Positions 18,236 through 59,870 of a DNA stretch of 64,000 nucleotides are shown here, in pieces. Both the position numbers and the translations under genes were made by a program. Each line of letters starts with the position of its first letter. The first letter of the stretch is position 1. Under the pieces are notes generated by a model. The model was not told the DNA's origin and searched no databases. It saw only the letters and a program-made list of their open reading frames with translations. This stretch comes from Liolophura sinensis (lineage: Eukaryota; Mollusca; Polyplacophora; Chitonida; Chitonidae): the NCBI RefSeq assembly GCF_032854445.1, contig NC_088297.1, positions 7,675,375-7,739,374 on the forward strand, given 5' to 3'.

Positions 18236-18425
18236 TCTCATGGGAACTTAGCTGAAGTAATGTACATTGTACCATGCACAATGGGCACCTCACTGGAAGC
18301 TGTTCAGGTCAAATTTGCCTCCATCATTGAAGATCTGAGCGGATGTCCCCACACACTGTCACAGTTTGTTGTCTGGGTTGATCTCTGTGTGGCAGAGTAC
18401 AAGTCGAATGGCTTCATTTATCTGA
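18236..18425 (+). CDS. Plus-strand gene, exon 1 (leader plus N-terminal module)
   Basis: Acceptor TTTGTTTGCAG just before 18236 suggests a non-coding 5' exon further upstream. I chose ATG at 18260 because it gives exactly the same coding length (166 nt) as exon 1 of the minus-strand paralog; the in-frame ATG at 18281 is an alternative. The module reads AVQVKFASIIEDLSG, then LSQFVVWVDL and AEYKSNG; the paralog has TVQYKFATIIGELCG, LSQFAVWLDL and SEYKLKG. Donor A/GTAAGT, phase 1. I recognise no named domain. Confidence 0.82.
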
Positions 18426-24676: not shown

Positions 24677-25315
24677 CTGGAGTTCCGGCTTTAAGTAGTA
24701 AGATATGATGGTACCCGCAGAGTCCTGCAAACACCCATAGTTCCAGCTGTAAGTGGTAAGATGTGATGGTTCCCGTCGGGTTTACTAACACCCTCAGTTC
24801 CGGCTGTATGTGGTAAGATGTGACGGTTCCCGCCGGGTTCTGCTAACACCCATAGTTCCAGCTGTACGTGGTAAAATGTGATGGTTCGCGTCGGGTTTAC
24901 TAACACCCTCAGTTCCGGCTGTACGTGGTAAAATGTGATGGCTCCCGCCGGGTTTACTAACACCCTCAGTTCCGGCTGTACGTGGTAAGATGTGACGGTT
25001 CCCGCCGGCTTCTGCTAACACCCATAGTTCCAGCTGTACGTGGTAAAATGTGATGGTTCCCGCCGGGTTCTGCTAACACCCTCAGTTCCGCCTGTACATG
25101 GTAAGATGTGATGGTTCCCACCGGGTTCTGCTAACACCCTCATTTCCGGCTGTACGTGGTAAGTTGTGATGGTTTCCGCCGGGTTCTGCTAACACCCTCA
25201 GTTCCGGCTGTACGTGGTAAGATGTGATGGTTCCCGCCGGGTTTACTAACACCCTCAGTTCCGGCTGTACGTGGTAAGTTGTGACGGTTCCCGCCGGTTT
25301 CTGCAAGTTCTGCCA
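24677..25315. repeat. Minisatellite, unit 57-58 bp, about 11 copies
   Basis: Units contain CTCAGTTCCGGCTGTACGTG, GTAAGATGTGATGGTTCCCG and CCGGGTTTACTAACACC, with starts at 24793, 24851, 24908, 24965, 25023 and 25081. Variant units with CATAGTTCCAG alternate irregularly. Confidence 0.93.
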
Positions 25316-31310: not shown

Positions 31311-31738
31311 CTAGTTCGTCGGTGGCTGCAGGGACTCGTTGATGAATTCTGTGACTTGGCGTTGCTTGTACAGAGACGCCTTCCTCGCCTTGTACGACTG
31401 TTGGCTTTTCTTGAAGACCGACGAAGAAATGATGGAATAGCCGTAGTCCTTCTGCTGCAGATATCGCTCTATGGCAGACCTCAGCGAGTTGAACGACGAC
31501 GGGTGATACTCCCCGCCGTCTCGGGTTTTTATATCGGAAAAGAATTCAGCAAGGTACTCGTCTAGCTCTGCTGGGGGCATGTCCTCTATGCGGCGATGGT
31601 CCTCAGCAAACCGGGTCCTAAGCCAAGATTGCAAACCTCTCACTGCAGATACGGTCTTCCGAATGGTGTCCACGGCCGTAAATCGGACGCCGGACTTTTG
31701 CAACAACAGCCCAGCCTCCGTGAAACACCTGTTGTCAT
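31311..31738 (-). CDS. Alternative terminal exon G
   Basis: Acceptor TTTTCTTCTCCTAG/AT, phase 1, 141 codons and stop. Domain: IRKTVSAVRGLQSWLR, RRIEDMPPAELDEYLAEFF, RDGGEYHPSSF, SAIERYLQQKDYGYSII, SSSVF. Last exon of the array in transcription order, about 25.5 kb from exon 3. Downstream exons outside the array were not seen between 23.9 and 31.3 kb. Confidence 0.89.
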
Positions 31739-34700
31739 CTAGGAGAAGAAAAGGAAGAAAACTAATTAGTTTCGTTTTTTGTGAAACCTTATAATTCACT
31801 AGTTCACGCAAAGGAAAAATAGAAGCATATGCACGGATACTCGCACCATACTCAGAAAAGAGTGAGTGAGCACTTGGGGTTTAACGTCGTACTTAACAAT
31901 TTTTCAGTCATATGACGACGAAGGAATCGTCAGAGTGCATAAACGAGGAAGTTTCAACTTCCTCGTTTATGCTCGCGTTAAGCATGAAGGGGATAGTGCA
32001 ACGACTGGTTGACCCGTATCAGCATAATGACTCGGGCGGCGCAGCTTACTTGCCTTCGGTAAGCCGTCTCAGTGAAGCAGCACAAGATAAAAGAGCAGTA
32101 GAAATCCGTCCTGCAACAAGGAGGCACACTGCATGCACTCTAGGGATTCTTCGTCGTCATACGTCGACTGAAAAATTGTTAAGTACGACATTAAACCCCA
32201 AGCCCTCACTCAGTCATTCTATTATTGGACGTCGACGCCGACGCTCATGGTACGATATAAGCTACGCCTGTACTTTATATAGACGAGCTAAAAATACCAC
32301 TCAAATTCCTAATGCATTAAAATGAAAAAAAAAATCATCTTTAATCAAAATCTCCATTGCAACTCCATCGTGCCTGGGTTTTCCATGTTTTGCAATCTGG
32401 TTTGGACTCTGTGGCTCAACTGCTGATAGCGGAACAGCTCTTTAATACTATATACATATACATGATCTGGCCTTCAGGTGGCACCAGGAATCATCTACTC
32501 ATTTCAGCGATGCCTGACTGTCCACCAGAACCCTTCATTTCGTGAATCGGTATCATGCGAACCTAATACCGCATTTATAATACAACTACAAAGATTCAAG
32601 GTGTAATGTTCTTACATGTATATTATAAAGCTTTCAAGAGTTTCTTCCGTTATTTAGTTTTTCCAACGTCCAGATCGATTGACACTTCTACTTAACTTAA
32701 GGGGGATCTGCCAATGACTTTGTTCAAATATTGCACACCAAATGCAGTCAAGCTGAAACAGTTCATGTGTAAATTGAAAACGTATTTTTTTACTGATGAC
32801 AAAAGCTATGAGCTGCTGGTTATACTGTTTACTTCATTCATGACTTAGTTGCCGTGGGATTTATTCATTTCGTTAGTGTTTTACGCTCTACTCATGTTGT
32901 CGTGGGATTTATTCATTTGATTAGTGTTTTATGCCCTAAACATGTTGCCGTGGGTTTTATTCATTTGATTAGTGTTTTACGCCCTACTCGTGTTGCCGTG
33001 GGATTTATTCATTTGATTAGTATTTTACGCCCCACTCGTGTTGCCGTGGATTTTATTCATTTGATTAGTGTTTTACACCCTACACATGTTGCCGTGAGAT
33101 TTATTGATTTGATAAGTATTTTACGCCGTACTCGTTTTGCCATGGGATGTATTCATTTGATTAGTGTTTTACACCCTACACATGTTGCCGTGGGATTTAT
33201 TCATTTGATAAGTATTTTACGCCGTACTCGTGTTGCCATGGGATTTATTCATTTGATTAGTGTTTTACGCCCTACTCATGTTGCCATGAGATGCTTAATG
33301 AAATCTCATCAAGTGCACGTGGTACGGGAATTTGAGAATTAAATACTGTAGTCATGGCAAACGAAAACATTCCGGTGAAAACATAGTAAACACTTGCCAT
33401 GGAGTAAATGAATTGTCCATTGTGACCTATCCAATGTATATTTACTCTGAAATACATGGATTGCTCTTTTATACTCTAATTCATTACATTTAATATATTC
33501 CAAAGGTGATCAACAAAAATGAGGACTAGTACATTTTCCAATAACTTGTCAATTAATCTCTAATGCAACATGTTCGTTGGCATTTAAGAAACGGAACGAC
33601 CTGACCTAATGAGTACTTAGGGATATGTACCCACAAAAGAATTCTGGCAAGAATACAGAAACATGACAAAAGATATATGGTACCGACATATGCTTAGAGG
33701 CAATTTTTGTTGGAATAATTCTTGTTATTAAACAAAGCTGAACAAGTAATAATATTTAGCAATTATTTATTGTCATTCTGCATGTTAATTAGCAAACAAT
33801 TAAAGACGAGGGATTCTCATAATCAAATATTTAAAGAGACAAAGAACACAAATTCTAAACATAAAGTGGCGCAAAAGTATACAAACGTGATATGAAGGCA
33901 AAGAGGTAGGAAGCGTTTTGTAAAACACTAAAGTGCAATGTCAGGTGTATTCTAAACGCATTCTGAGTACAGTATTGTCCAGCGGTTTCAAAGAACTAAC
34001 CGTAAACCGTAGTTGTATATACACATATAAATGTCGTTGAAACATTCTACTTGAGCATAGTCTGGCGTTGTGAACAACCACTTTCTGTCCAGCATATGTT
34101 GGCAAAACAAATCAGTACTTAACTAAGACTTGACGTTAAAACAAACGCTACCTGACCAGCAGATGATATTATATATGAACACTACATAACAAACATTTGA
34201 CGTTAAAATCTGTCTGACGAACACGAGCCGTTAAAAATGAAAACTGCCTGACGAACATGAGACATTCAAAACGACGACTGCCTGACCAACATGTGACGTC
34301 AAAAAAGTCGATTGCCTGGTCAACATGTGACGTCAAAAAAAAAACGACAACTGCCTGGCCAACACGTGACGTTAAAAACAACGACTACCTGGCCAACATG
34401 TGACGTTAAAAGCGACGACTGCCTCACCAACATGTGCTTTTAAAAAGTAGCAATTCACTAACCAACAGTTGATGTAATAAACATCATTAGCTGACCAACA
34501 AGTGAGGTCATAAACATCATTAGCTGACCAACAAGTGAGGTCATAAACATCATTACCTGACCAACAAAAGATGTTATAAACACCATAAGCTGACCAACAG
34601 GTGCTGCTGTAAACATCGTTAGCTGGCCAGCAGGAGGCGTCATAAACACTATCAGCTGAACAACAGGTGACGTTATAAACACCATTAGCTGACCAACAAG

Positions 34701-37700
34701 TGAGGCCATAAACATCATTCGCTGACCAACAGGTGAGGTTATAAACACCATAAGTTGAACAACAGGTGAAGTTATAACCACCATAAGCTGACCAATAGGT
34801 GAGGTTATAAACACGATCAGCTGACCAACAAGTGAGGTTATAAACACCATAAGCTGACCAACAGGTGAGGTTATAAACACCATAAGCTGACCAACAGGTG
34901 AGGTTTATATACACCATCAGCTGAACAACAGGTGACGTTATAAACACCATAAGGTGACCAACAGGTGAGGTCATAAACACCACAAGCTGACCAACAGGTG
35001 AGGTTATAAACACCATAAGCTGACCAACAGGTGAGGTTATAAACACCATAAGGTGAACAACAGGTGAGGTTATAAACACCATAAACTGAACAACAGGTGA
35101 GGTTATAGACACCACAAGCTGAACAACAGGTGAGGTTATAAACACCATAAGCTGACCAACAGGTGAGGTTATAAACACCATAAGCTAACAGGTGATGTTA
35201 TAAACACCATTAGCTGGCCAACAGGTGATGTCATAAACATCATTAGCTGACCCAACTGATTATATTAAAACAATTATATCTGACCAAAAATGATGTTTAA
35301 ATAACACATAATAACAAGCTCACATCCCCTCAAAATGCATACATGTGCAAATCTAGAGATCAGCCACACCAGATGGCCTATGTGTTTTGTGACATAAAAT
35401 CTACATAGCCTTAACACTATTGTTACGTGGAGACATGATCATGTGAACAAGGTAAGGGCTGCTACATAACTACAATATGCCCGCTAGGCTGTCACACACG
35501 AAAAAAAAACAATGGATTAAGGAAAAAGGCAAAATCAAGACCCCAGCTAACCAATGTTGATTCACAAAAATAGAGTGAGAAGGCCAGTGTTGCTGCAGAG
35601 TTAATTGGGCCTTGGAGATCATATGCTATAACACGCAACACAATCAGAAGCATGGATCCACATTGTCACACGGTAGGTGGATAATCATGTACAGTAGTGT
35701 GAATTCCAGTCAGGCTGTTGTTCTTATTTTAAGAATGTGTTCCTTCAAAACTCAACAACTAAAGTACACAAAACACATCCGACCTTTGAACTGATGACCC
35801 GAATATGTACTGGTACTACGATGTCTTTAAGGTGTTTTTGACAAGTGAATGTCCTTAGTTCTTTTGAACTAGTCACCCGATTATGTACTGGCCTCAGAAT
35901 GTCTTTCAGGTATTTTGACGAGTGCATTCTTACTTCATGCTCTGTTGTTAGAAACAGGTACACACAACCATGTCCAACTTTTGAACTTTTGTCAGCCGAT
36001 CGTATACTCTGGCAATAAGATGTTTTGAGGACTGTCTACTCTGGTTTTTTCTTGCTCTGTTGTTGCTTTTCTAGGTCTATTAGCCTGGTTTTGTAGGCCA
36101 TCTGACTAGAGAGGAAAATGTCGGATTTCACAATGGAGCACGGGTAGAGAAGCTGTTGAAGATATCGTTCTATGAAAGAGCGAAGCGCCCTGAACGAGGA
36201 TGGATGATAGTCCGCATTCGCCTTGTTCCGCGCCGTGGAGAAGAAATGGGCAAGGTACGCGTCTAACTCCGTTGGCGGGATATCTTCAATGCGACGCATC
36301 TCTTGACAATTTGACGATAACCAGTTATTCAGTACCTTCACTGCCGATAACATGTTCTTTGCCGTGACTTGTTTTCCGTGCCACAAAAGCGGTACAGGTT
36401 CCCCAGTTTCAGCATTGAGTCCATGTGCTGGAAGTAGAAATAACTTTGGGTTGATAGTGTGATCACTGCGACATGTATGTGGTATTGCTGTAAGAGGTGT
36501 GCAGCAAAAACCCCTTGTTCAAGTAAATGAAACAGCGAACGTTTTGCTGTCGCAAAATAGAACAACTGGGGAGAGATCTGCAAGGTACGGCAATGTACTG
36601 TCAGCGTCATATTTATGCATAATTTAAAAAGATATCTAATATTTGGGACATGGTTTATAACTGACTCAGAACTCAGCATCATTGAGCGTATGTAAGCATA
36701 CTTAACATAATTACATAACACTTTCACACCCCCGAGATGACATTGCCTCTAAAATACCATTCAACCTAAATCACAACAGTATCCCTACGACACAGCATAA
36801 CCCCACACTATCCAACACGTCAAACATTTCTAAGTGACGTCAAACATTTCTAAGTGACGTCAAACATTTGCATATTGCAGGGCATAAGGTCACGCAGAAG
36901 AAATGAACTGATCATACTACTATCGATTGAATACAGCTACACCGAATTACTTCCCTTTATGTGTGTTGTTATTTTTATTACACTCCGTTGCTACAATATG
37001 GCTGAATTTGTCGCAACATGACACATGTACAGGTCCCACTCCTCCCACTTAATTTCATCATCGCTTTTGTTTTGCAGATTCTTTCTTTATGAAATCCGCT
37101 ATTCATTAGTGTTATTTCCTAAACCCTTTACACTACATCTCATATTTCTGGCTTGTCACGGGATATTTACGTTTATCCTTCTTCAATAATACGTTTATCC
37201 CTCTTGAATAATGCTTATATCACAGGTCGTAGTAAGCAACTGAACAACAAATAACAATTACTTATTCATTTAAAGGTCTGGTTTCCATTTTCTCCTGAAA
37301 AAGACTATTTGACGTCAGTGAAATTTATTTATTTATTTATTTATTCACTTATTTGACTGGTGTTTTACGCCGTACTCAAGAATATTTCACTTATACGACG
37401 GCGGCCAGCATTATGGTGGGAGGAAACCGGGCAGAGCCGGGGGAAAACCCACCACCATCCGCAGGTTCCAGGCAGAGCTTCCCACGTACGGCCGGAGAGG
37501 AAACCAGCACGAGCTGGACTTGAACTCACAGCGACCGCATTGGTGAGAGGCTCCTGGGTCATTACGCTGTGCTACCGTGCTAATCAACTGAGCCACATTG
37601 GCCCCGACGTCCCTGAAAATAATCCTGTCAAGTCATACAAACTGCCTCCGGTAATTCCACCTAGACACCAAAAGGGACACGTCTGGCCCAGAGGAAAGAT

Positions 37701-40700: not shown

Positions 40701-43700
40701 GCTGTGAGTTCATGTCCAGCTCATGATGGCTTTCTCTCCGGCTGTACGTGGGAAGGTCTTCCAGCAACCTGCGGATGGCCGTGGGTTTCACCCGGGCTCA
40801 GACCGGTTTCTTCCCACCATAATGCTGGCCGCCGTCGTAGAAGTGAAATATTCTTGAGTACGGCGTAAAACACCAATCAAACAAATAAATAAATAAATAA
40901 ATAAATAAGCAAGGGTAGATGCATTATCGATGTCTAGTGTATATTTTGTTCAGTGTAAATGAAATGAACAACTGAATTTCTGGGACGTTTTAGGAAAACA
41001 TCTGTGCTTACGGTATCAAAACAACACAAATACTGAGGGAAGCTACACACACGTCTAAAAATTACTGTCCCTGTCTCTAGAATGAGAAAGTATTCACCTG
41101 ACAGCGCCAACTATTTCTACCTATTTCTATTTCTATCACAGACTCCAGCATAAAAAATTGCCATCTAGCGTAAACTCTCGACTGCATGATCGACTGCTTG
41201 GTTCAGTCATATTGATAAAACGCATGTGTAGAAAGATCCCCGTCATACCTGGATCCATTATAGTAGTGGAGTATTGCTACGCGAGAGTACATGCATTATA
41301 GACGGAAAGCAGGGATAATATGTCTAGTGTAAATTTTAGTCCAGTGTAAATGAAATGAGCAACTGAATTTCAGGGAAGTTCTAGGAAAACATCTGTGCTT
41401 ACGGCATCAAAACAGCACGAAGCACAGAGCAAAAGCTACACATACAGGAAACGTCTAAAAATTACTGTCCCTGGGCATGAGAGAATTCACCTGACAGCAC
41501 CAAACATTTCTACCTCCCACAGACTCCAGCACAGATGATTGCCACCTGGCGTTCAACAAATGAACTATAATCTGGTCTTCTATAGTATGAATCTGATAGT
41601 GTTACTGGTAGGGTATACAAGACCGCATGAATGCGTCACTGCTGTGGGTTGGTGAGTCCGTGCGTGGGGAGGGATTTACGGATGATTCCGTTTTCAGTTT
41701 GGTGCAGCTCGGGCTGAGGACCCCTGGTGACGGCGGCTGGTGTTGCCTACCAGCTTGCTGTGAACGCGAGATAGCCTGAAGCTGATTCATTCTGAGCTTG
41801 AAAGCGCCTCGACTGTTCAGAAAAGCAGCTGACTTGACGATGGAACAGGGATAGCCGCGATAATGCAGGTACCGCTCAAGACAAGACCTCAGACTGTTGA
41901 AGGACAAAGGGTGGTAGTCACCACCCTGGCGGTTCTTCACCACCGCGAAGAACTGAGTGAGGTAACGATCGAGGTCCTCCGGGGGGATTTGCTCGACAGG
42001 GGTGGATACTTTAAATTGTTCACAGGCCAGCCATGTTTGGAGCACCTTGACAGCAGAGTACGTGTTCTTGATCGTGTCCTGGCAGGCTTGACCGGAACGT
42101 CGTGTAAGGCCCACTAGTGGGATCTGGGAGTGTCCCGCGCTTCCCGGGGACTTGGGAGCACCTTTGTCGTACCTAACGTAGGAAGCCAGCGGATCGACAA
42201 CTGGAATTAGAAACGACTGTATATAAGTGGCAGGTACATGCTTCCAGGAGCTTCTTGTCTTGTTTAAGAAAAACGACAGAATGTTGAGATGTAGCCAAAC
42301 TAAAGTAACATCCCACAACATGAAGCTGCCGCCTAATCACAAAGCATGCATTTACAGGAACACGTGGAGATATACACTATAACACAGGTTTGTCGGGCAT
42401 GACGGTGTTTACAGGTACTGAAAAACTCTCAATGTACGAATTTTGATCTGAAAAGGTCAACGGTCACAGATGAGGACTTCAGGTAACAATCCAAGGTGAT
42501 CTTGAGTACTCTCTTGCGGGACCTATAAAAAAACATTAAGTGTATGGTTTTCAGCAAACTGAAGAAAGATATGCCAAACTAATCAGTTTTGAAGCATATT
42601 TTATATTTCCTATCATCACCTCTACTTTATGCATATTTTATGTTAATTTTCGGGAATATTCGGACGAACATACTGAGATCCTAACGCACTCACTTCGCGC
42701 TCTGGCCCGAACAAAGTTGTTTTGACAGCTATCACCGATGACGTCACCATACAGCAGACCACTTAATTTCCCGAAAGGAGCTTGCGGAAAATTCTGGTTT
42801 AAAGCAGTTTTTAACGCCCCTGGAAGAAAACTTGGAAGCTGTTTTGTACTTTATATATTAGGCCACATCTTACACTCCATATTTCTAAACAAAAACTGAT
42901 GCACCCATATACCTATTAATGTATGTTCTTAGACATAATAATGTTGGGAAGGGTCAAACCTGAGAAATGAGGAGTTACATGTAGGTTAAAGTCTTGCCGA
43001 ATGCAATCTAATGCCATCTAGATGTTCTACCTATACGTGCGTGTATGTCGACCGTCAAGGGCTTGTCTGAGTGTTGGAAACATAGCCATGTCAGCCAATA
43101 TGAACGATGAGTGGAGAATTCATTTTCACAATATATCAGTAAAGAACGAACCTGTCTACGAAAAAATAAACCCGTCTCTTTCACCCAAAAAACAGTAAAG
43201 ATGGGTTGAAGAGTGAGGTACACGATTAACGATGGAAAAAGTGTGGCGAAACTCTATCCTACAACTACACCACACACTGAGTGCCAGGTAGGGTTAGCAA
43301 TCACAATATGTTTGCTCAAACATACCACACTCACGTAACAGGAACACAGTACATGTAAACAAAATCATTGTAGGCCTACTTGAAAATCTAATATTGCACG
43401 AAATACCTGAACGGGAGTAATTGTGAAAATAAATACCCGATTTTAATTAAACTTATGCATGCACAAATTCAATTCTACAGACAGACAAACGGACAGACGT
43501 AGAAGACAGACATACATGGTGAATCCAGTATACCCCTCCCCAACAGTTCCCAAAGAAATACAATGGAAATAATAAAAACAATTAGCAAATAAAGCTGGTA
43601 GAAAGTGAGATAGGCTGGTAGCATGTGAGATAGGCTGGTAGCATGTGAGATAGAAGCTTTCAAGAGTTTTCAATGATACAGGGAACACAGTCGATTTTCT

Positions 43701-49700: not shown

Positions 49701-52114
49701 GTACATATACAATTTATTCTCATTATTACAAAGTTGTGCTGTCTATTTTCTAAATGTATGTTCAAATATAGATTTCATAAAATGAAAGCCTTGACTTTCG
49801 TCGGAGTTACACTCTATAGGTCGACTCAAATGATCAAATGCCATAAAAAGCAAGGTGCGCTTCAGAAATGTTTCCCATGTTCTGGGTAAACCAGCCTTGG
49901 TTAACAATACCTTGTACCCACCCGTATGGAATGGCCATTTCGCTTGGTTCCAGCATAGGCCTAAGTTTCGCTGAACAATTGGCAGGATTCAAATATCTTC
50001 TGTGTTCTGTGGCGTGCATATGACACGCAGTACATGTACATCATGCTACTCCTCGATAACTGACATCCATAAACCTCCATGCACTGTGGATCCAAAAATG
50101 GAAGGAATCGAAGTATCATCTCAAGACAAATTTTATCCGAAAGACGAATTTTGCATCGTGTTATGGGCAGCAGTGTGCGATGGGGATGTAGTGGGCATGC
50201 TCGAACTACAAAGTTCCTGACAGCGAAGTTTTATCGCCTCTGCACTATTCGCAAAAGCTGGAGAGCGTATAATGGAACACTGGTAGCCAGCTTCACGCAA
50301 GTAAAACTGTAGTCCGGCTCGAATTCTCCTTAAGCTGCTCGCGTCGTAATCCTGGCCGTTGCGTTTTTTGGCCTTGAAGAAAAATTCAGCCAGATACTTG
50401 TCCAGAACAGCCGGTGGAATCTCCTCAATGCGTCGGTGATCGTTATGCTCACTAGACCACAACCAGCGCTGAAACAGTCCCTTGGAAGCACTTGCGTTTC
50501 GAACGGTAGAATTGATGACTTTAGGCCTGCCGATTTCCAAAGTTTCTGGAACTGGTCCAAAATAACCGTCTGGGTGTCCAGATATTCCTGTGAATCCACT
50601 TCTGTAACCCCTGGGACCCTCCCACAACGATTCCGCCATCCCGCCCCGAACACGCCAAGGTCTGGCAACATATCATGTTAAATGTTCTCAGTAACCTCGT
50701 TATTACAGTCAGACAAACGTGACAAGATAACTTTAACTTCAACAAACAGCAGAATCAAACGAAAATATGAATCACATCTAAATCTGCATGACGAGCATCA
50801 GTAGATGTATAACTGCTTTACAGTGCCTTTAGTATACACGTGTACATGTTTTTTGCTAGCTCGAAAATGTAGCCTTCAAAGCAGTGTTTTATAGATAGGA
50901 ACTACCGTGCTGATCAACAGACAGGTACAGGTTTGCATAAAAATACATGTATAGAGTGACCCTTGGTTTTAAATCTACATGTAATAGCATCCCACAGTGT
51001 ACATGTCTGGCTGTAGGCGGCGCACCTGTTGAATATTAGAGGCAAAACATGTGCTTCCGGGAAATCTAAGAGCATAGAAGAAAGTAGATTACAGGTAGCA
51101 TTGGCTTAAGACGTACAGAGATCTAAAAAAGCGAGGTAGGATACAAGGTAAAACACGAAGATCACTAAAAACAGTGTTCCTGAATGCAATCATCAGAGCG
51201 TATGATGTCCGGAGTCATCCGGATTCAAACTGCGAAAGACGAAACTGATTCCATAAGGAACACACCTCTGTCCGTATATGTAAGCAGAGATGCAAGATAC
51301 AATGTGTTGATAAGGTGATAGAGGTATAAAGGCCCAACGCACTTGAACAAACAAAATTAGTATCTATGGAAACACAGCTCTCCTTGGCTATGAGCATACG
51401 ATAGTCTACACCGATTACTTAGGCAAAGCCATCCATATCAAAAGCGACACTGTCGTTTTCCACATATCCCTTTGCCACTGTAAGAACAGGATACTTGACA
51501 CCAAACCTTAATATGGCATCAAGAATTTATCAATTTAAACCAGTAAAATGGCTTTCATTTATATTTCATCAACTGATAAATTACTGCAAGAAAGCTTTCA
51601 TCGCATGACTAACCGAATGATTGAACCGAATACAACTAAAACTGGTCAACCTCGCAGACAGAACAAAATGTAGCGCTTGAAACCTTCATGTACATGCGAG
51701 TTATGGGTGTCCTGATGTAACATTTGTCGGGAAAATGTATAAAATTTATATTCAGATCAATGTTTGACCCTATTTCACACAGCACAACAGCCAACCCCAT
51801 TCTCAGGTGTCCCAACACCTCCATAGTTCTCACGACCATGGTTCAAACAATAAGCAGGAAGTTTAATGGCGATTTCTTGCTTTTCACCAACATGGTCCAT
51901 AGCCTGCATATTGACCTTGTCATATCAGTGAGTATCTGTGCGTCAAATACAAGGAAGTTAGTCAGTTACTTGCCAAGGGATGGTGGTTTCCTACAGAATT
52001 TATGATTTTCTTCATGTCTTTTACCCACAAAACTGTCAACACTGTTGTATAAGTGAAATATTCACAAGTACGGTATTAACCTCTAAACAAATATATGTAA
52101 AATAAATAAATATA

Positions 52115-52157
<43 letters not shown>

Positions 52158-55100
52158 ATAGAACCATATGGCCATCTACCATATTTATCAAGGGAATAGA
52201 ATACACAAACAGAAATATGCTTCTGAATGAGCCGTCATCCCAGGGATTTGGATCTCAGTTTTAGCGCCCACTGACTTCTCCGAAAAAGTGGGGATTGAGC
52301 TATGCATTCACTATAGTTATTGTCACGTAGGTAACGACTTAAATGTGTTCTTATGGAGATGAGGGAGCGAGCATTGTAATCATCACCATTCGGTTTCTTT
52401 GCAGCTTGAAAGAACTGGGCTAGATATCCATCCAGTTCTTGGGGAGGTATTTCGAAAAGTTGCCGATCCGTTGGAAGCTCAATTTGCCTTGACCAACGCC
52501 AGAAACTTGCCACAGCCCCAGCAATATTCTGCTGAGTTTTGTACGAAAGAGCCTTAGGAAGTTCAGCATCTTGAATAACCAGACTGTCCCCCAGGACACT
52601 ATCCTTATGCACTACGTGCGTAACTGGGTTTGCACCTGATATTTTGTCCATCATAGGCGCAGGATGGTAGGACCGGGATTCGCTCCGATAATGACTGCTC
52701 CCCGCATCTGATAATGTCTTGTTCCCTACCGACAAGAAATGAATGAAGGAGTTCAACTTCAAAGTAAATGTTCTTGCAAAAGGGCACAACAATTAAGATA
52801 TTATTTCTCTAAGTTTTAGTAACTGAAGTAAAAGAAAGCTAAAATATGTAAGAAGGTTCATCATACAGACAAGTGAAAACTATGCGTAAAAATACCTTCA
52901 TTTATTTTTTTCCACATTTTTTAAGAGTGTTGAAAGGCATGCAAATATGTGAAAACCATGGTGGGCTTTGTGAGCCATACAGACAGTAGCTAGAAACTCT
53001 GAACTCACATCACATTTTTCTGGTCATGTTCACCAGAAGGAAGGAATTTTTCGCAACATTATTTCAGTAATCTTTCACTCCTGGGTAAAAAGAGTTATTG
53101 TAACATTCAGTGTTGTTAGGTTGAAAAAATTTCCTATGACGTCAGCGTTCTTCACGTCTGACAGTATGGTCCATAAAGCCCACCTTAGAATTCAAATCTT
53201 TTCACAAAATTTCACACAAAAAAAAAATAAATGAAAGATTTTTATGTATAGTTTTAAGTGGTCTATTTAGCGATGCCTACTTCAATTTTTACCTTTAAAG
53301 CAAATGAAAATTATTTATTTATTTGAATGGTGTTTTACGCCATACTCAAGAATATTTCACTTTTATGACAATGGTCAGCATGATGGGAGGCAACGGGAAT
53401 AAAGATCATCAGTTCAGAGCTTCACATGTATATGAATAAAAGACCATCACTGAGTTGATCTAGACTTTATGTTTGTCTATAAGACAGGTTCAGTCACTGC
53501 CGACCGGTAAATGTCCATACATGCAACTGAATTCAATGTTCATACATGTACTGTAACTGAATTCAATGTTCATACATGTACTGTAACTGAATTCAATGTT
53601 CATACATGTACTGTAACTGAATTCAATGTTCATACATCACTCAGCAGTCAGGTCAATGGTTGTTTTCCTCAGTCCCATGGAACAGTGTGCTTACCAAGCC
53701 CTGTCAGCATTACTGGTTCACATTAAATTTCTGTCTTTGTCTTGCACTTGGGTATTTTTAACATCAACTTAAAAATAACCCCCCAAAATACATGCAGCAT
53801 CACAATGATACATGCAACCATCTGTTTATTTCATTTCCGTGATTGTTGAGAATTCCAATCAACCCCACACAAGTACATGTGTACTAACATACCACACTGA
53901 GAAAGATCTGAGAACTACAAGCATGTGATGTCCTGAACGCCTACTGTGTCTGCCAGGTGTATTCAATCAGCATAAATAAACATCTTATTTAATATGTTCA
54001 CACATGCATCAAAATACATTGTATGTTTTAAATATTCCTGTTTTTATACCCACTTGACATCTTATACACATATACGGACTGTTTTTTTTTTTTTTTCACA
54101 CTTTATACATGTCAAACAGCTTTTACGTCTTTAACTCAGACAACACCATGCTTCTGAATATGGGTCAACTGACAAATGCTTCTGTCAAGTTTTGACCGCC
54201 AACGGACAGAAAATTTCTTGCTATACTTGGTATTACACAAACCTAAAATTTCATTCATGACAAAACTGTTTAATCTGCCTGGTTCTGAGGGTTATACTGA
54301 CAAGACTGATCTGAGAAAGCTGTTTTGAGTGAGTGAGTGAGTGCCTGAGGTTGAAAGCCGTATTTAACACTTTCTCAGTCATATGACCACGAAGGCATCC
54401 TTAGAATGCATGTAATGTGCCTCCTTGTTGCAGGACGGATTTCCACCGCTCTTTTATCTAGTGCTGCTTCACTGGGAAGCCTTACTGCGGGCAAGTAAGC
54501 CGCCCCGCCCGCGCCATTACACTGATACGGGTCAACCAGTCGTTGCACTATCCCCTTCATACTCAAGCGAGGAAGTTAAAACTTCCTCTTTCAAGGTCTT
54601 AGGTGTGACTCGACCAAGGATTGATCCTGGATCTACTTCTCCCGTCGCAGACACTCTACCAACTGTGCTATTGGGGCTGGTCAGAAAGCTGTTTTGAGAC
54701 ATGTTGGCAATGTAGGATGCATCAAATGTGCATAGTATATTATGACACTTACATGTATGTGCTGCTGAAAATGAGCTTTTTTTACTAATATTTTAGATAA
54801 GTTACTGTGTAATCACCAGCATTTACAAGACACCTGTACACAAACTGCTATAGTGAGGGACGGTAAAAATAACACTACACAAACACTGTTGAATAAATGT
54901 GTACATTATTCGGATGTTCTGATTGATTTAGTCATAACTGTAATCTTATAAACATCAGACTTTCCCAGTTATTCCCCATGGTATGCTATGGTATGCCGTG
55001 TGTACACAAGTACAGACTATATATAAAAAAACACAGAGCCACATATAATGCAACATAGGATCAAAACGACGCATTGTCTCTTCCATGAGTAAAACTATTT

Positions 55101-58100
55101 TAATCATACGCACGTAAATATGTTGGCAAGTACATATACTTGTGCATATAATCTACCTGTGTGGCTGGGATTGGTACACATATCTGTACAAGAAAATCAC
55201 ATCTTTATTTTCTATTTACTCCATCAGATAAATTCTTCGGAGCATACAAAATTTTACATTACAGTGCCATGGAAAATTCGCTGAGGAAATTGAGCAGATT
55301 TCCAAGGAAACCACTAAACCCCACTCAGCAACCCGCTGACAAATGTCTTGACAAAAAGCTACATGTACACAACGATAAACAGCTGATCTGCCAGCCATGG
55401 CATGAGCTGTTTTACGTTATAAAGCCACACCTACACAATATAACGATATAATAGTAGTACAGGTACAGTAGTCGAAAGGTGTCCCTCACAGACTTCACCA
55501 TTGGTGTGGGGCTTACAAGAAATGAGGCCAAGCGAGGTCACGTGACACGTCACAATTAAGGGAACCCTAAAGAAAATCCTCTTATATTTAAAAGCAGGTT
55601 GGTCAGGGAAATCTTATTTATTTTTCAAACCTTTGTTTCTTAAAGATCAGTAGAAATCATGAAATGAGGTCTCCCATCTAAATGGAATAAAATAGAGAGG
55701 CTTTCGTAACTTTATCCTAATAAAAAACATAGAAGAACTGAAGTAGCATTATTTTAATGTGTATGTCAGTTTACACTCAACAGGCAGATTTTTAAGGATG
55801 GCATCAGCATGTGAGTACAAATCAATATGAGTTGACACAAAAAGTTTGGTACCAGGACAATGTAGGACATTCGAAGAGGGACGACGTAAGATGTGTGATT
55901 GTCCACACATGGCTCACCCACTTGGCAGGACCTGACCTGTTGTCTGTGAGATTAAATAATATCAAAACTGGGTTATATATGTATGTGCTACTTTCTGAAA
56001 ACCTATAAAAACACCCATGCAATTATACATCAATTTGTATATAAACTGATGAAGATGAATACACTGAGAACTTTGAAACACTGCACATGTCAAATAATAA
56101 GCTCTCTAGCTAAGATTCTATCAGCCTGAGGTCATCTTGAAGACAACAGACTGCTGTGTATGTCTGTTGACATGTGACAGTCTACATGTGTGTGAGGCCC
56201 CCTCAGAAAATAGCCTACCCCTTTCCAAGAAAATAGGCTACACGTATGTGAGGAGGGAATTTTTTTGCCAAAAATCAATATGTGGAATAAAATAAAAGAA
56301 AGTATTTTAAAGAAATTCTCATGGAGAGTACCGCAGTTTTTGGGAGGGTGAACTGAGTTAACCCCAACAAAAACAAAGACAAAGTTGGAATACACTGTTT
56401 GACATGAGTGCATGAAATTATCTTTTTCTCAGATTGCTTTCTAATCTACATATATACATGTATATAGTCAAATATTAATATGATTGAACAGAGATATAGA
56501 TGGCCTCCTTAACAGCACTCTTTAAACAGGCACAGCCAAAAAATTTTCACTTTGACACCACCACTTGATGGATTGACTAACTGGAGTTTGCTCAAATGTT
56601 AATACTGTAATTCTTCAACCTTTTTGCATTTTGGGAAGGTGTTTATTCAAGCATATTCTCAAGGTATTATTCATATTGACTGATAAGATTATATCTTTTT
56701 TAAAGCTCGCAAATTGGCCGATACAAACAATGTAGGTTTATCCCAAAATCAAATTATAAATATGCAGAAATTGTAGCTGAAGTTTCTCTTTCATGTGCGA
56801 AAAGGTTGAGGAATTAGGGTAGAGCTCTTGTACACTGAATTTCTTATTTCATCAAACTGAATACCATAAACAGTTTTAAATGTGGAAACCTGCATTGTGA
56901 CTGCCATTTCACAAATTCAGTTGATTTGATTTAGAACTGATTCGTACTACAGTTTGTGAAAAACTGACGTGATTATGTGATTATAATTAGATTTCAGTTC
57001 AATTCCTCTTTTTCCTTTTCACAAACTTTTATGTATCGGTACAGTTTTCTCTGAAATCTAAAAATCTCATCCAAGCAGATTTGAAATTGACTCATTCTGT
57101 GTCCCATGCTGAGAAAAGAGTACAGGTCTACTAAACATGTCATGCAGTAGCCTTTAAACTTATCTATACTGTGTTAGAGTATTAACATCCAACAACAGCT
57201 CTGTTTTTCTTGAAGATGACCCCAGGATTTTATAACTACTGGATGAATAAGAAGTACAAACCTGCATCTGAAGAACTCGCTGCTCCCCTAGTTTCTTCTA
57301 TTGTTGTTGACTTAAGATCTGTCGAATGAGCAGACTCTGAACTGTCCTGTAAAACACTGGCTGAAAAAAAACTCAGCAGAGTTATTCCCCCCTTGGTCTG
57401 CATAAGCTGTAGAGTTGTGTCCCCTTGGATAAGTACTGCTGTTGTCTTGTATAAACTGTTCTAATTCACTATCAACACTGGTTTCTGTGATACGGGAAAG
57501 GGACTGGTCATGGGATGAGAGAGAGAGTTCCTGGGAAAAACTGGCATGTGATGCCTGGGGTAATGGGGATGAAAAACGCTGATATTTTGCTGGAGACAAA
57601 TCATTAGTGTCAGAAAAGCGCTTGCGCTCCACTCGACCCACTGCTGCTGAACTTGTTGAAGTGTTGTTTTCGTGTAAACCTACGGGATAAACTTCCTGGT
57701 CGTTAGAGTCATTTTGTTCTTCTTTGATGACAACGATATCTGGGGACTCCGCATTATCTGCGCCACAACTGGTGGTACGCTCACTCTGCTGTGCCTCTCG
57801 GCTGAGTCTAGAGTGACCATGTTGTCCCCCCGTGGGTCTGTCAGTGGGGTGATGTGTCCGTGGAGGGGCCGTGTCCTTCAGACCCTGCAGCCAGTCAGGA
57901 TCAGGCTTTAAACCAGAGCAGTCTGAAACAAAGAGATTAAACACCTCAGTATGTACATGTATGCGTTCATCAACTGATAAACTAAAAATACACATTAAAC
58001 ACGCAGTTTATAAACCATATCATTTATTTGCCTGGTGTTTAGTGGTGTGGATTTATGATTTTTTGACCATATGACGATGACCAATCTCATGGATTAAGAA

Positions 58101-59870
58101 TAATCACACTCACAACAGAAAAACAATAGAAAAAAAGGTCCTGTTAGGTGCCTGACAAAGCTGGTTTACAGAAACAGCCAGAAATAGGCTGATTATAAAC
58201 ACAGTTGCAGGGGAAAGAACATTCCATTAAAAAGTAAGCCATACAGGTACATGCATATTAAAATTTATGATTTAAATTTACTACGCTTTATGAGTTTGAA
58301 ACTGCTCTTTTGTATACAGTGCCAGGCTCTGATCCCAAGTTGTAACGCTGACACTGTGACCGTGCTGTGCATAAAGAAATTGTACAAAAATGTAACTCAA
58401 AATGATGTTTTTTGAGTCTGATATACACACAGAATCAATGGTCACTGGCTGGCAGCTTCCTGGGTTAAACCCTTGAACTTTTGGCCACATCTCTAATAAA
58501 TCTGGCATACCCAAAATTCAGCTTAGACTAAGCAAAGTCCGGACTTGCCTATCTTTCAATGCAGCCATATCAGAAACAACTCAGATTAGATTTTAATGAT
58601 ACACCCTCATTCCTCAACCTTTTTACATACATGTATTAGTCTATGAAGAATATTGCTAGAATAAATACTTTGCAAACAAGTGAAATGGTTGAAGACTTAC
58701 AGTAAACCATTGTATTTTTATTCAATAATTGTTAGTTTTAATACAGGGCACCCAACAATTTTGGGCGCCCAAAGGTTTTCCTGAACTAAATGTAAATATT
58801 TATTTATTTATTTATTTGATTGGTGTTTTACGCCGTACTCAACAATATTTCACTTATACGATGGTGACCAGCATTATGGTGGGAGGAAACTGGGCAGAGC
58901 CCAGGGGAAACCCACGACCATCCGCAGGTTGCTGTTAGACCTTCCCACATACGGCCGGAGAGGAAGCCAGCATAAGCTTGACTTGAACTCACGGCGACCC
59001 CATTGGTGAGAGACTTCTGGGTCATTGCGCTGCGCTAGCGCACTAACCGACTGAGAAATCTAAATATGGCCCTGGTACACATGTACATCATGTACATGGG
59101 TCTATATGTAGATACATGTAAAACTTTGTAAACATGTAAACTTTGTAATAACGTTAACTTGTTTAACTACAAAAATACACATACAAGCACTACGTTAATT
59201 CTTCAAGCTTTTCAGATTTTCAGTACAATTTACTGAAAACTTCAGTGCCAACTTCAGTGCCAACTTCAGGGCTCTGCAAGAACTATAATTTTATCAGTCT
59301 ATAAAGTCTTCACAGAATAATGCCTTCAGGATATGCTTGAATAAACACCTTACAAGCTTGCGAAAAGATTGAAGAATTACAGAAGGCACTCTAGCACACA
59401 TAAACATTTTTTCCCTAAAACATGTTTCATGAAAACCTGTGACTGTGCAAATTTAGAGTAGGTCAGAAGGAATTTCTCTACCATTTTCAAGCAATTTAGC
59501 ATTTAAAGGCATATTGCAACAGAAAGGAAAAGTAAAATGATTTTCTTGTGAAATGCTAAACAACAACATTTGAGTAGGGCTTTTTGCAGTAGGTAGATAT
59601 GGTTATGCAAAACAAACCTACATGTATGTTTACATGACAAGACAGTCATATGAAAAACTTTAAAAGCAAATGCCGAATGACAGATTGTAACTTTGTACCA
59701 TTACCTAATGATATAGATCCTTTTAACTTGTATTCAGACAATCTCAGGTCTAACCAGACTGCAAACTGTGAGAGAACAGATGGCTTCCCACATAGCTCCC
59801 CGATGATGGTAGCAAACTTGTATTGAACTGTCTCCAGGGTGAAGTCAACGCCCACTGATGTCTGGCTCAT
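31311..59870 (-). CDS. Gene with seven alternative last exons, each encoding a Crypton-type core-binding domain
   Basis: Shared exons: 1 (59870-59705), 2 (57922 to about 57437) and 3 (57360-57262). Then, in order of transcription, come terminal exons A (52725-52235), B (50587-50133), C (47246-46894), D (45211-44862), E (42200-41602), F (36427-36036) and G (31738-31311). Every terminal exon begins at an AG acceptor in phase 1, is in frame with the phase-1 donor of exon 3, and ends in its own stop, so only one can be used per protein; predicted products run from 366 to 449 aa. No separate promoter-proximal exon resembling exon 1 is seen between them. Products share the N-terminal module and linker (SUMO motif IKEE, VYPVGL) and differ only in the C-terminal domain. 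The alternative reading, several genes whose 5' exons I failed to find, is less economical. Confidence 0.78.
31857..32216. repeat. Fold-back SINE-B derivative
   Basis: The left about 80 bp (GTGAGTGAGC to GGAATCGTCAGAGTGCA) reappear inverted at the right end. The middle is a plus-orientation SINE-B body lacking its tRNA-like head. Inside, 31939-31972 is a perfect hairpin (16-bp arms, ACGAGGAAGTT core). The left flank shares ACTCAGAAAAGAGTGAG with the SINE-B at 30063. Confidence 0.8.
32849..33291. repeat. Minisatellite, unit 48 bp, about 9 copies, derived from a SINE-A tail
   Basis: Units read GTTGCCGTGGGATTTATTCA, TTTGATTAGTGTTTTACGCC, CTACTCAT. The middle is the reverse complement of the SINE-A 3' end. 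A 162-codon frame exists only because 48 is divisible by three. Confidence 0.92.
34190..34455. repeat. Diverged tandem repeat, unit about 40 bp
   Basis: Units contain TGCCTGACCAACATGTGACG and TCAAAA- or TTAAAA-type spacers. Distantly like the 33-bp array beside it (GACCAACA(T/G)GTGA). Confidence 0.8.
34459..35265. repeat. Minisatellite, unit 33 bp, about 24 copies
   Basis: Units read AAACACCATAAGCTGACCAA then CAGGTGAGGTTAT. Period divisible by three, hence a 269-codon minus-strand frame, which is an artefact. It lies between terminal exons F and G. Confidence 0.94.
35270..36030. other. Exon F downstream region
   Basis: Probably the 3'UTR and flank of terminal exon F. A block with CCGA(T/A)TATGTACTGG and AAGGTGTTTTGAC-like words occurs about three times between 35790 and 36030. 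No AATAAA on the minus strand was noticed. Confidence 0.4.
36036..36427 (-). CDS. Alternative terminal exon F
   Basis: Acceptor ATTTCTACTTCCAG/CA, phase 1, 129 codons and stop. The exon has no ATG near its start, so automated start-to-stop frames miss its first part (HGLNAETGEPVPLLWHGKQ). Domain: NMLSAVKVLNNWLS, RRIEDIPPTELDAYLAHFF, ADYHPSSF, SFIERYLQQLLYPCSIV, KSDIF. Short lysine-rich end (QQQSKKKPE). Confidence 0.89.
37322..37606 (-). repeat. SINE-A, full length
   Basis: Reverse orientation, low divergence, complete head and tail. Confidence 0.93.
37935..38520. mobile_element. Non-autonomous DNA element with about 150-bp terminal inverted repeats
   Basis: The left end (GGTGGAGAAAATATAAAAAT to TTTGTATGGTGGGTAATTGG) is matched by the reverse complement of the right end (CAAATACTCACCATACAAAA to TTTATGTTTCCTTCTCCTTT). 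About 290 bp of AT-rich unique sequence lies between. No transposase frame. A second copy lacking most of the right arm is at 26845-27295. Confidence 0.72.
38818..39053 (-). repeat. SINE-A copy
   Basis: Reverse orientation, with a small deletion between tail and core. Confidence 0.88.
39726..40088 (-). repeat. SINE-B copy
   Basis: Reverse orientation, from GAGAGTGAATCAGTGCTTGG to the tRNA-like head ending CTATGCTATCGCAGCCGG. A short internal ATACTGATA duplication is present. Confidence 0.88.
40541..41560. repeat. Tandem segmental duplication of about 375 bp, one copy carrying a SINE
   Basis: 40541-41169 and 41170-about 41550 are homologous (shared TGGTTCAGTCATATTGATAA, CCCCGTCATACCTGGATCCA, GTCTAAAAATTACTGTCCCT). 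The first holds a SINE-A insertion at 40661-40906; the second has the empty site. It lies just downstream of terminal exon E. Confidence 0.88.
40661..40906 (+). repeat. SINE-A, 5'-truncated, with target-site duplication
   Basis: Starts inside the head at GCGCAGCGTAATGACC. Flanked by AAGCAAGGGTA (40650-40660) and AAGCAAGGGTAG (40907-40918). Confidence 0.92.
41602..42200 (-). CDS. Alternative terminal exon E
   Basis: Acceptor GTTTCTAATTCCAG/TT, phase 1, 198 codons and stop, the longest of the set. Domain: IKNTYSAVKVLQTWLA, TPVEQIPPEDLDRYLTQFF, RQGGDYHPLSF, SCLERYLHYRGYPCSIV, KSAAF. It alone carries a long C-terminal tail (about 75 residues), rich in Ser, Pro and Gln, with a SUMO consensus LKTE. 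Closest to F and G. Confidence 0.89.
42210..44855. other. Intron between terminal exons D and E
   Basis: No further exon of the array recognised. A 20-bp unit (GATAGGCTGGTAGCATGTGA) repeats three times at 43594-43655. AATAAA-type signals on the minus strand near 43803-43850 could serve exon D. Confidence 0.45.
44862..45211 (-). CDS. Alternative terminal exon D
   Basis: Acceptor TTTTACCGGTTGTAG/GT, phase 1, 115 codons and stop. LPRRYRSGAKVFEGWF, RPIQNISPEELDPILAQFF, MPDGREYKPSAL, YSIDRYLNCHGYGVSI. One of the two PP positions is Ser-Pro here. Tail of about 15 residues. A 92-codon minus-strand frame just downstream (44519-44797) has no splice or motif support and is taken as 3'UTR. Confidence 0.88.
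45549..45812 (+). repeat. SINE-A, full length, with target-site duplication
   Basis: Flanked by TACAACTGAC on both sides. Confidence 0.92.
46178..46312. repeat. Direct duplication of about 65 bp
   Basis: Two units sharing AACGGCCATACGAGAGACGT and AAATTGCCAACA. A 74-codon plus-strand frame spans it but has no other support. Confidence 0.85.
46685..46690 (-). terminator. Candidate poly(A) signal for terminal exon C
   Basis: AATAAA on the minus strand about 205 nt past the exon C stop, a normal distance for a compact 3'UTR. Confidence 0.35.
46894..47246 (-). CDS. Alternative terminal exon C
   Basis: Acceptor TTTTGGCCATTGCAG/GT, phase 1, 116 codons and stop. LPRRYRSGANILQGWL, RPIHSIPPKELDLLLEHFF, LPDGRQYKSGTL, YGIDRYLESKGYACSI, RDPKFF. 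Clearly the sister of exon D (shared LPRRYRSGA, FFST, LPDG or MPDG, IDRYL). The domain starts almost at the splice site, with little linker. Confidence 0.88.
47815..48030 (-). repeat. SINE-C fragment
   Basis: Contains the TTTAACGTCCTGCTTAACAA and CATATGACGACAAAGAGTCA terminus, and the GACACCAGACATGACAC block also seen at 14460. Confidence 0.65.
48333..48695 (+). CDS. Unrecognised 120-codon open frame behind a splice acceptor
   Basis: The frame opens right after an in-frame TAA and an AATTATTTCAG acceptor, then runs 120 codons to TGA with no internal ATG needed at its start. It reads LFRSFLINLCGVYFNDSLT, TWKLHKSN, KIADSDSKISIFLCN, ERTVFFPNAVCYEGDHVV, then a His/Asp-rich patch (PHNHHDHDNG) and VYFQDPLYNIDLPVDYLL. 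I do not recognise the family. A decayed relative at 11.3 kb keeps the same motif order, which suggests protein-level constraint in the past or a mobile origin. It lies in antisense orientation in the intron between terminal exons B and C, and no upstream partner exon was found. Confidence 0.45.
   Translation, partial: LFRSFLINLCGVYFNDSLTADNFITWKLHKSNACKIADSDSKISIFLCNSVERTVFFPNAVCYEGDHVVSSFRSVLRNESVLFRSDVQAVPHNHHDHDNGIHVYFQDPLYNIDLPVDYLL
48700..50130. other. Intron/3' region of exon B, no further feature
   Basis: Apart from the AATAAA at 49713 I see no exon or repeat. Short frames look random. Confidence 0.4.
49713..49718 (-). terminator. Candidate poly(A) signal for terminal exon B
   Basis: AATAAA on the minus strand about 415 nt past the exon B stop. 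Confidence 0.3.
50133..50587 (-). CDS. Alternative terminal exon B
   Basis: Phase-1 acceptor GATTCACAG/GA, with a poor pyrimidine tract. An alternative AG at TCCCAG 22 nt upstream would force another frame that does not lead into the domain. Domain: TVRNASASKGLFQRWLW, RRIEEIPPAVLDKYLAEFF, RNGQDYDASSL, GLQFYLREAGYQCSII and RSPAF. Valine replaces the usual glutamate in PPxELD. A Ser/Thr/His-rich tail of about 25 residues follows. Confidence 0.84.
52035..52160 (+). repeat. SINE-A tail with expanded (AAAT)n
   Basis: A diverged GTATAAGTGAAATATTCACA block followed by about 15 AAAT units. Confidence 0.85.
52235..52725 (-). CDS. Alternative terminal exon A
   Basis: Acceptor TTCTTGTCGGTAG/GG, phase 1, 162 codons and stop. 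About 80 polar residues precede the domain, which begins at QNIAGAVASFWRW and shows RQLFEIPPQELDGYLAQFF, PNGDDYNARSL and HLSRYLRDNNYSECI. Only about 15 residues follow the last helix, ending in the basic LKLRSKSLG. First terminal exon after the shared exons, about 4.5 kb downstream of exon 3. Confidence 0.87.
52925..53310 (-). repeat. Dispersed repeat, copy 2
   Basis: Reverse-complement partner of 25345-25710. Confidence 0.7.
53308..53400 (-). repeat. SINE-A tail fragment
   Basis: Only the tail and the GTGTTTTACGCCATACTCAA block remain. Confidence 0.8.
53514..53638. repeat. Tandem repeat, unit 30 bp, four copies
   Basis: Units read TGTAACTGAATTCAATGTTC then ATACATGTAC. The multiple-of-three period gives a spurious frame. 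Confidence 0.95.
54330..54682 (-). repeat. SINE-B, full length, with target-site duplication
   Basis: Reverse orientation. Identical AGAAAGCTGTTTTGAG on both sides (16 bp; left copy about 54314-54329, right copy 54683-54698). Confidence 0.93.
54700..57255. other. Intron between shared exon 3 and terminal exon A, upstream half
   Basis: No exon or mobile element recognised. It would be the place to look for a small first alternative exon or splice-control element, but I see none. Confidence 0.4.
57262..57360 (-). CDS. Minus-strand gene, shared exon 3
   Basis: A 99-nt phase 1-1 segment after TTTTTTTTCAG/CC, encoding an acidic Ser/Thr-rich stretch (SVLQDSSESAHS to IEETRGAASSSDA), donor GCAG/GTTTGT. 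It may be a true exon behind a 76-nt intron, or the continuation of exon 2 if the run of eight T is really seven. Confidence 0.65.
57437..57922 (-). CDS. Minus-strand gene, shared exon 2 (linker)
   Basis: Acceptor TTTGTTTCAG/AC, phase 1. Starts DCSGLKPDPDWLQGLKD, then a polar Ser/Thr/Gln/Asp-rich linker with IVVIKEEQ (SUMO consensus), VYPVGL, a basic RVERKRF stretch (possible nuclear signal) and a SPAKYQRFSSPLP segment. The proposed donor AGCA/GTACTT leaves phase 1 but is weak. Without splicing the frame continues to a stop at 57312, giving a short form with no C-terminal domain. Confidence 0.78.
58798..59056 (-). repeat. SINE-A, full length, with target-site duplication
   Basis: Flanks AAATGTAAATAT and AAATCTAAATAT (one mismatch). 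It sits in intron 1 of the minus-strand gene. Confidence 0.92.
59705..59870 (-). CDS. Minus-strand gene, shared exon 1 (N-terminal module)
   Basis: ATG at 59870, 55 codons plus one base, donor TTAG/GTAATG, phase 1. Encodes LETVQYKFATIIGELCG, LSQFAVWLDLRLSEYKLKG. An acceptor (TGATTTTCAG) lies about 25 nt before the ATG, so the leader is probably spliced, as in the plus-strand paralog. The module looks alpha-helical with no motif I can name; it could be a dimerisation or partner-binding domain common to all isoforms, by analogy with BTB domains in lola-type genes (inference). Confidence 0.85.

Follow-up and report, generated by a model that had tools for sequence, protein, structure and literature searches.

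We report here a family of about 37 genes in the chiton Liolophura sinensis that probably share a single design, in which a constant head is followed by alternative, recombinase-derived last exons and the tail would aim a shared regulator at its targets. The arrangement of the genes argues strongly for alternative last-exon splicing in cis; the function of the products as nuclear regulators and the target specificity of their tails are more speculative. A constant head with alternative terminal exons had already been put forward in a preliminary description of one gene in the window, that is, the whole 64-kb stretch of DNA analyzed here. Across the 37 genes, the ratio of heads to tails and the strand, order, phase, and spacing of the exons appear to fit nothing else as well. 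That description spoke of one gene with seven last exons. The seven exons are real, but a sibling gene on the plus strand (18281-23939) and the genome-wide family had been missed.

The window gene and its sibling

The window gene occupies positions 59870-31311 of the minus strand and starts with two shared exons. Exon 1, or the N exon (59705-59870), has 55 codons from the ATG, encodes a predicted two-helix module, and ends in phase 1. Exon 2 (57262-57922) has a phase-1 acceptor, begins with DCSGLKPDPDW, is Ser-rich, and contains the SUMO-type motif SPDIVVIKEE. The statement that the shared exons end in phase 1 is correct for exon 1. As assembled, however, exon 2 loses one base of frame at a run of eight T (57364-57371) when it is read as one exon like that of its paralogues, which places the donor at 57262 in phase 2 and a stop of the frame at 57312. 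A candidate intron of 109 bases (57361-57469), which ends just after the T run and has a weak donor (score -0.2), would restore phase 1. The related statement that every combination of exons yields whole codons consequently stands if this intron is used or if the T run is erroneous, but not for the assembled sequence with exon 2 as one exon. Because the open frame of a paralogue (C3:7823018) aligns with the stretch around the T run, a one-base assembly error or an allele appears to be favored over the intron.

The exon-1 peptides of the window gene and of the gene at C3:7822084 are identical over their 55 residues, and their DNA differs at 10 of 165 bases; the introns flanking exon 1 hardly align between the window gene and the gene at C3:7821964-7823968. 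Either strong constraint or gene conversion limited to the exon could account for the identical peptides. By this comparison of sequences, the conserved part of these genes is the head.

Seven terminal exons (D1 to D7) follow on the minus strand. An AG precedes each of the acceptors named in the preliminary description (52725, 50587, 47246, 45211, 42200, 36427, and 31738), and each exon has, as described there, a phase-1-compatible acceptor and its own stop: all seven lengths are 2 mod 3, which continues a phase-1 donor, and all frames are open to the stop. D1 (52235-52725), D2 (50133-50587), and D3 (46894-47246) each encode a core-binding domain. D4 (44862-45211) is closest to D3, with 53% identity, and may start at the phase-1 acceptor 45211 or 45190; likewise, D6 (36036-36427) may start at 36427 or 36487, the alternative phase-1 AGs at 45190 and 36487 having the higher scores. 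In D5 (41602-42200), a phase-2 AG at 42172 outscores the phase-1 AG at 42200. The D2 acceptor at 50587 is weak, having no pyrimidine tract and a score of -4.7, and the better-scoring AGs nearby, at 50545 (phase 1) and 50661 (phase 2), are both weak as well. D7 (31311-31738) has a strong phase-1 acceptor (score 9.1). The assignment of all seven exons to one domain family is borne out by an alignment of these exons and an eighth copy from the plus strand, in which about 100 residues can be aligned and 15 columns are invariant. D1 to D7 end soon after the core-binding domain.

The eighth copy comes from the plus-strand gene, which on the evidence of its exons is a one-tail member of the same family. 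Its exon 1 (18281-18425) is a diverged N exon with 56% identity, its exon 2 (21180-22148) is long and contains an IKTE motif, with a phase-1 donor after 22148, and its single terminal exon (23458-23939) encodes the core-binding domain.

Several other features were noted in and around the window. An interspersed repeat with GAGTACGGCGTAAAACACCAATC (up to three mismatches) is present in 18 copies in the 64 kb versus 0 in shuffles, for example, at 58818-58840, 45776-45798, and 40856-40878; the copies that were read continue into AAATAA units. Long minisatellites lie at 34461-35252, 19707-20530, 24681-25304, 11656-12006, and 32848-33292, with periods of 33, 40, 58, 32, and 48, respectively, and some of them contain long open reading frames that probably do not represent genes. 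An exon of a short-chain dehydrogenase at 6830-7195 of the minus strand (PF00106, E 9.4e-16) belongs to an unrelated neighbor gene. Beyond the right edge, the window gene is head to head with the next family gene (C3:7739545, plus strand), their first exons lying about 4.3 kb apart. Head-to-head pairs of N exons recur in several clusters and may share a promoter region.

Tail domain and head

Based on a structural model, the tail resembles the core-binding half of a tyrosine recombinase of the Crypton/QRICH1 type. An AlphaFold2 model of D7, made from the eight window copies, consists of four helices with a mean pLDDT of 86. Structural alignment ranked QRICH1 in Zincore first (9hjt_H, Z 11.2 over 107 residues, which is below the Z of about 13 under which helical bundles may have only a common arrangement), followed by 15 Cre entries (Z 9.1-10.4) and integrase-type N-terminal domains (Z 5.1-5.5); unrelated chains scored Z 5.0 or lower. 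With QRICH1 and Cre ranking first, the fold comparison supports the Crypton-type core-binding domain proposed earlier. Foldseek alone gave a weak match of the same model to QRICH1 (E 0.38). Weak matches to Pfam QRICH1 (PF25561; E 1.4e-5 to 0.041) in all seven window exons lend support to the core-binding reading, their scores of 14.4-25.5 bits being below the curated cut-off of 30.8, which is exceeded by three other array exons (C3:19659427, C3:7789473, and C3:7786140, the last with neighbors in frame). Sequence searches of D7 gave no PDB match up to E 10, or up to E 1 with a profile of eight rows, and tblastn of D7 against phages gave none up to E 0.1.

The other, catalytic-like half of Crypton-derived proteins is DUF3504, which derives from Crypton recombinases (Kojima and Jurka, PMC3212892). 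No window exon matches DUF3504 (PF12012) at E up to 1. In the genome, PF12012 was found at no fewer than 59 places (150 of 167 candidates scored), of which only C7:55529465 is in an array; one further array exon aligned over the DUF3504 half in our fourth domain query. Two neighboring exons, C7:55526859 and C7:55529714, of the gene at C7:55540339 (C7:55526300-55530678) have a DUF3504-like half in one frame with the domain and are probable intermediates between full-length Crypton-type and truncated tails. An orphan at C1:41738664 has a core-binding domain followed by a DUF3504 match, and a separate multi-exon gene at C1:57.888-57.895 Mb contains QRICH1 and DUF3504 pieces in order. The window exons do not have the form of an active Crypton transposon: they are arrayed and end soon after the core-binding domain, and present neither a complete recombinase nor dispersed single copies.

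By its title, PDB entry 9hjt shows Zincore, here with QRICH1, in complex with the DNA-bound zinc-finger protein ZFP91 (Zincore is cited in PMC13383152). By analogy with QRICH1, the related domain of the tails, for which the preliminary description proposed seven DNA specificities, may contact protein as much as DNA.

The AlphaFold2 model of exon 1, made from an alignment of two rows, is a two-helix hairpin (helices 12-26 and 30-50, pLDDT 82, pTM 0.52). A Foldseek search with the N-exon model returned two matches only, both at E 8.8, for a hairpin of 55 residues that is too small to trust. Pfam gave nothing up to E 10 for either N exon in the window, nor for peptides joining an N exon to the head of exon 2; it gave none up to E 1 for the exon-2 frame of the window gene, and no BTB domain in exon 2 of the sibling. 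Exon 2, which could be parsed in 37 of 42 head regions, has a Ser content of 16.5%. The motif [VIL]Kx[DE] was present in 32 of the 37 parsed exons, compared to 6.7 in shuffles, often within a stretch resembling SPDIVVIKEEP. We take it to be a SUMO-acceptor motif, adjoining a hydrophobic run like those that bind SUMO. It is this combination of motif and hydrophobic run in exon 2 that points to nuclear regulators.

A recombinase-like domain, a large family, and a SUMO-type motif in the head would also suit a role in genome defense, with captured domains aiming a SUMO-linked silencer head at Crypton-type or other transposons. KRAB zinc-finger proteins provide a parallel for silencers aimed at transposons. 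We regard this role as unlikely because the arrays are old and stable and dN/dS has a median of 0.15 in 12 pairs, unlike what would be expected of an arms race.

Layout, phase, and age of the arrays

A search of the animal's own genome (609 Mb) with the exon-1 peptide identified 45 N-exon places, and all 26 matches of an exon-2 search lie beside an N exon. Three domain queries together identified at least 210 distinct places, to which a fourth query added five inside arrays and eight outside; these are lower bounds, as 150 of 273-293 candidates were scored per domain search. Along the chromosomes, each unit starts with a single exon 1, continues with a single exon 2 if one was detected, and ends in a series of domain exons that all lie on the strand of exon 1. 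There are at least 214 arrayed domain exons in 37 genes, with 1 to 30 in each gene and more than one in 31 of the 37; the largest arrays have 30 (N exon C3:7816029) and 24 (C3:19670675). Domain exons thus outnumber heads by about five to one (214 arrayed vs 45 N exons), no N exon was detected within the array of any of the 37 genes, and eight of the 45 N exons had no domain exon assigned to them.

In the main set, the nearest N exon on the 5' side, within 150 kb, is on the same strand for 214 of 215 domain places. In 1,000 trials each, the mean was 132 (maximum 165) when N and domain labels were shuffled within contigs and 108 (maximum 171) when the strands of N exons were randomized. The five array exons from the later, different query all conform to this rule. 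When the eight places outside arrays are included (C9:23788100, C5:19433284, C13:14257671, C9:5187304, C13:11478754, C1:22475939, C2:17161151, and C3:6970771), the nearest N exon lies upstream on the same strand for 214 of 223 domain places, with maxima of 167 for shuffled labels and 180 for random N strands. The nine exceptions are these eight and the orphan at C1:41738664; all are away from arrays. Since seven of the nine (six of the eight outside places, plus the orphan) adjoin a DUF3504 match, we read them as transposon relatives. Left out of the domain counts was C3:19666236, a longer, diverged recombinase-like open frame within an intron of the C3:19670675 array (C3:19665800-19667300), which is probably a transposon copy.

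Neighboring domain exons are spaced by a median of 2.8 kb from start to start (177 spacings). Five of the 177 neighboring pairs are on opposite strands, and we interpret these pairs as places where two arrays meet tail to tail. The most distant arrayed exon lies 94 kb from its head, and the next longest reach is 70 kb. In the 94-kb case, this last exon is 99% identical to a twin that lies 59 kb nearer the head. These two terminal exons (C3:2175773-2176773 and C3:2234768-2235768), which are 99% identical in their domains and far younger than the other pairs, are either a recent segmental copy or an assembly duplicate.

Such distances from the head might be taken to suggest that domain exons are transcribed separately and joined to the head in trans, as in part of mod(mdg4), of whose more than 30 isoforms at least 18 are apparently trans-spliced according to PMC4528330. 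In mod(mdg4), however, there are exons on the opposite strand, whereas here every arrayed exon shares the strand of its nearest 5' N exon, and a strict same-strand order is what splicing in cis would preserve. Crude k-mer counts upstream of the acceptors yielded no common or clear element, only repeats of the ACATGTA type and weak words. We therefore judge trans-splicing very unlikely.

Intron phase is consistent with splicing in cis from one head to any tail of its array. The highest-scoring AG acceptor is in phase 1 in 169 of 183 domain frames, in phase 0 in seven, and in phase 2 in seven, compared to about one third expected by chance for phase 1. The base composition of the acceptors is partly built in by the scoring, but the phase count is not. 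The frames comprise eight from the window and 175 from 140 fetched regions, including the orphan C1:41738664 and one fragment of 31 residues; of the 167 domain regions that lie outside the window, the splice tests covered 140, to the exclusion of those at C3 8.93-9.23 Mb and the final seven on C7. On the side of the heads, there are 43 N regions outside the window, of which 40 entered the analysis of donor phase with the two window genes and three were read separately. In these 42 head regions, phase 1 was found for the N-exon donor in 40 of 41 cases and for the highest-scoring exon-2 donor in 36 of 40, a count in which the window gene is represented by its weak donor at 57470. Because the introns of the family are almost uniformly in phase 1, each head can be joined in frame to any tail of its own gene.

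The gaps between a stop and the best acceptor of the next exon are as small as 210, 320, 334, and 389 bp, so that a promoter and another head would hardly fit. In 41 of 182 places, no in-frame ATG lies between the domain core and the stop upstream of it. In the same 182 places, which include the orphan C1:41738664, the domain is complete in a single frame in 181, and the remaining one begins at model position 13. After the domain, the tail continues for a median of 12 residues (183 frames, of which six are cut by the fetched region), and AATAAA or ATTAAA is not enriched after the stops of domain exons.

Among 43 pairs with more than 60% identity, synonymous sites are saturated in 29 of these closest pairs, and in the 12 pairs with dS below 2 the maximum dN/dS is 0.30, with the low median given above. 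Saturation, low dN/dS, and intact domains suggest that the arrays are mostly old and are maintained by purifying selection. For 118 of 181 exons (12 expected), the nearest relative is in the same array, and for 72 it is the immediate neighbor among the sampled exons, indicating growth of the arrays by local duplication. In the first three domain searches of the genome, stops were present in 1 of 150, 3 of 150, and 0 of 150 rows. The longer fourth query, which runs past the stop of the exon itself, had stops in 12 of 141 array rows and in five of nine matches outside arrays.

These data bear on whether only one or a few exons of each array are used, the rest being Crypton remnants or unused duplicates. 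Crypton-like copies with DUF3504 do occur elsewhere in the genome, some acceptors are weak, and a few copies contain stops. Unused copies of this age should nonetheless have decayed, yet 181 of 182 domains are intact despite saturation in 29 of 43 pairs, and the stops in array rows mostly result from running past the domain, in contrast to the higher proportion outside arrays; we consider general disuse highly improbable. Least probable of all is that the clusters are ordinary tandem duplications of separate small genes, each domain exon with its own promoter and a nonhomologous 5' exon, because, even though the exons have clearly multiplied by tandem duplication and a median spacing of 2.8 kb would let many gaps hold a short exon, there is a single N exon at the 5' end of each run (45 for 214 arrayed domain exons), and the smallest gaps (210-389 bp), the phase-1 acceptors (169 of 183), and the lack of an ATG before the core (41 of 182) all speak against it.

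Known systems, proposed mechanism, and significance

Alternative last exons joined to a constant head have counterparts in Drosophila. For lola and mod(mdg4), at least 20 (PMC1947980) and more than 30 (PMC4528330) isoforms, respectively, have been reported. Like the family described here, in which splicing is read from the genes, they combine constant N-terminal exons with alternative C-terminal exons that mostly encode targeting domains. The same layout of a constant 5' part followed by several phase-compatible terminal exons with their own stops is found here, subject in the window gene to the frame of exon 2. By contrast, lola and mod(mdg4) have a BTB head and mostly zinc-finger tails, whereas in our case the window N exons have no Pfam match, the tails are recombinase-type core-binding domains, and there are about 37 paralogous loci. 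Dscam1 and the clustered protocadherins and UGT1 also have tandem variable exons and a constant part, but are described as varying internal or first exons, whereas here the last exon varies.

With respect to the domain, the nearest precedent is vertebrate KIAA1958, in which two isoforms carry different Crypton-derived DUF3504 domains in different exons, with splicing unconfirmed according to its authors (PMC3212892). KIAA1958 has two exons with a DUF3504 region; the family here has at least 214, mostly with the core-binding half only. The Crypton-derived coregulators QRICH1, ZMYM2-4, and WOC (Zincore) have the same predicted core-binding fold as our tails, but are given as single genes with a DUF3504 domain in PMC3212892. 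Crypton transposons themselves share the domain family of the tails; the difference is that DUF3504 was detected in only two array exons here and that the array exons are arranged and phased as host exons. We know of no arrays of alternative ends in QRICH1, ZMYM2-4, or WOC. A literature search by title and start of abstract, with most subscription journals outside its range, found no description of such arrays. The logic, then, is that of lola and mod(mdg4). What differs is the domain, its origin in a recombinase, and the scale across a gene family, a combination that is apparently undescribed. To our knowledge, this would be the largest known set of alternative last exons, spread across a gene family rather than a single locus. 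The annotation of such loci is probably fragmented, and relatives may be hidden in other genomes.

We propose that the constant effector half of the protein would be formed by exon 1, which encodes the predicted two-helix module, together with exon 2, which encodes a linker rich in Ser and the SUMO-acceptor-type motif. One pre-mRNA per locus would run through the array of terminal exons, and the exon-2 donor would be joined to one of them. Because each terminal exon has a phase-1 acceptor and its own stop, one tail would be translated per transcript. Each tail would be a different Crypton-type core-binding domain, nearly always without a detectable catalytic half, and by analogy with Zincore it would likely aim a SUMO-linked regulator of chromatin or transcription at DNA or at DNA-bound zinc-finger proteins. 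Since the variable exons are the last ones, the choice of promoter cannot pick the tail, which would probably be selected by competition between acceptors together with 3' end formation. It is conceivable, although we think it unlikely, that a choice at the RNA level restricts every cell or stage to one or a few tails of each locus, giving a genome-wide code of nuclear regulators from about 37 loci and at least 214 tails.

In conclusion, if the proposed design is true, it would let single genes give rise to families of nuclear regulators on a large scale, by means of a domesticated transposon recombinase domain. Two questions would become testable in a single animal: how one terminal exon among as many as 30 is chosen by a cell without the help of promoter choice, and what the Crypton/QRICH1-type core-binding domain recognizes, be it DNA, zinc-finger proteins bound to DNA, or both. 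The 214 or more natural variants on conserved heads provide a ready-made specificity series. If, in addition, the tails were used as a code, this would amount to a combinatorial nuclear identity, a counterpart for transcription and chromatin targeting of the Dscam and protocadherin choice at the cell surface.
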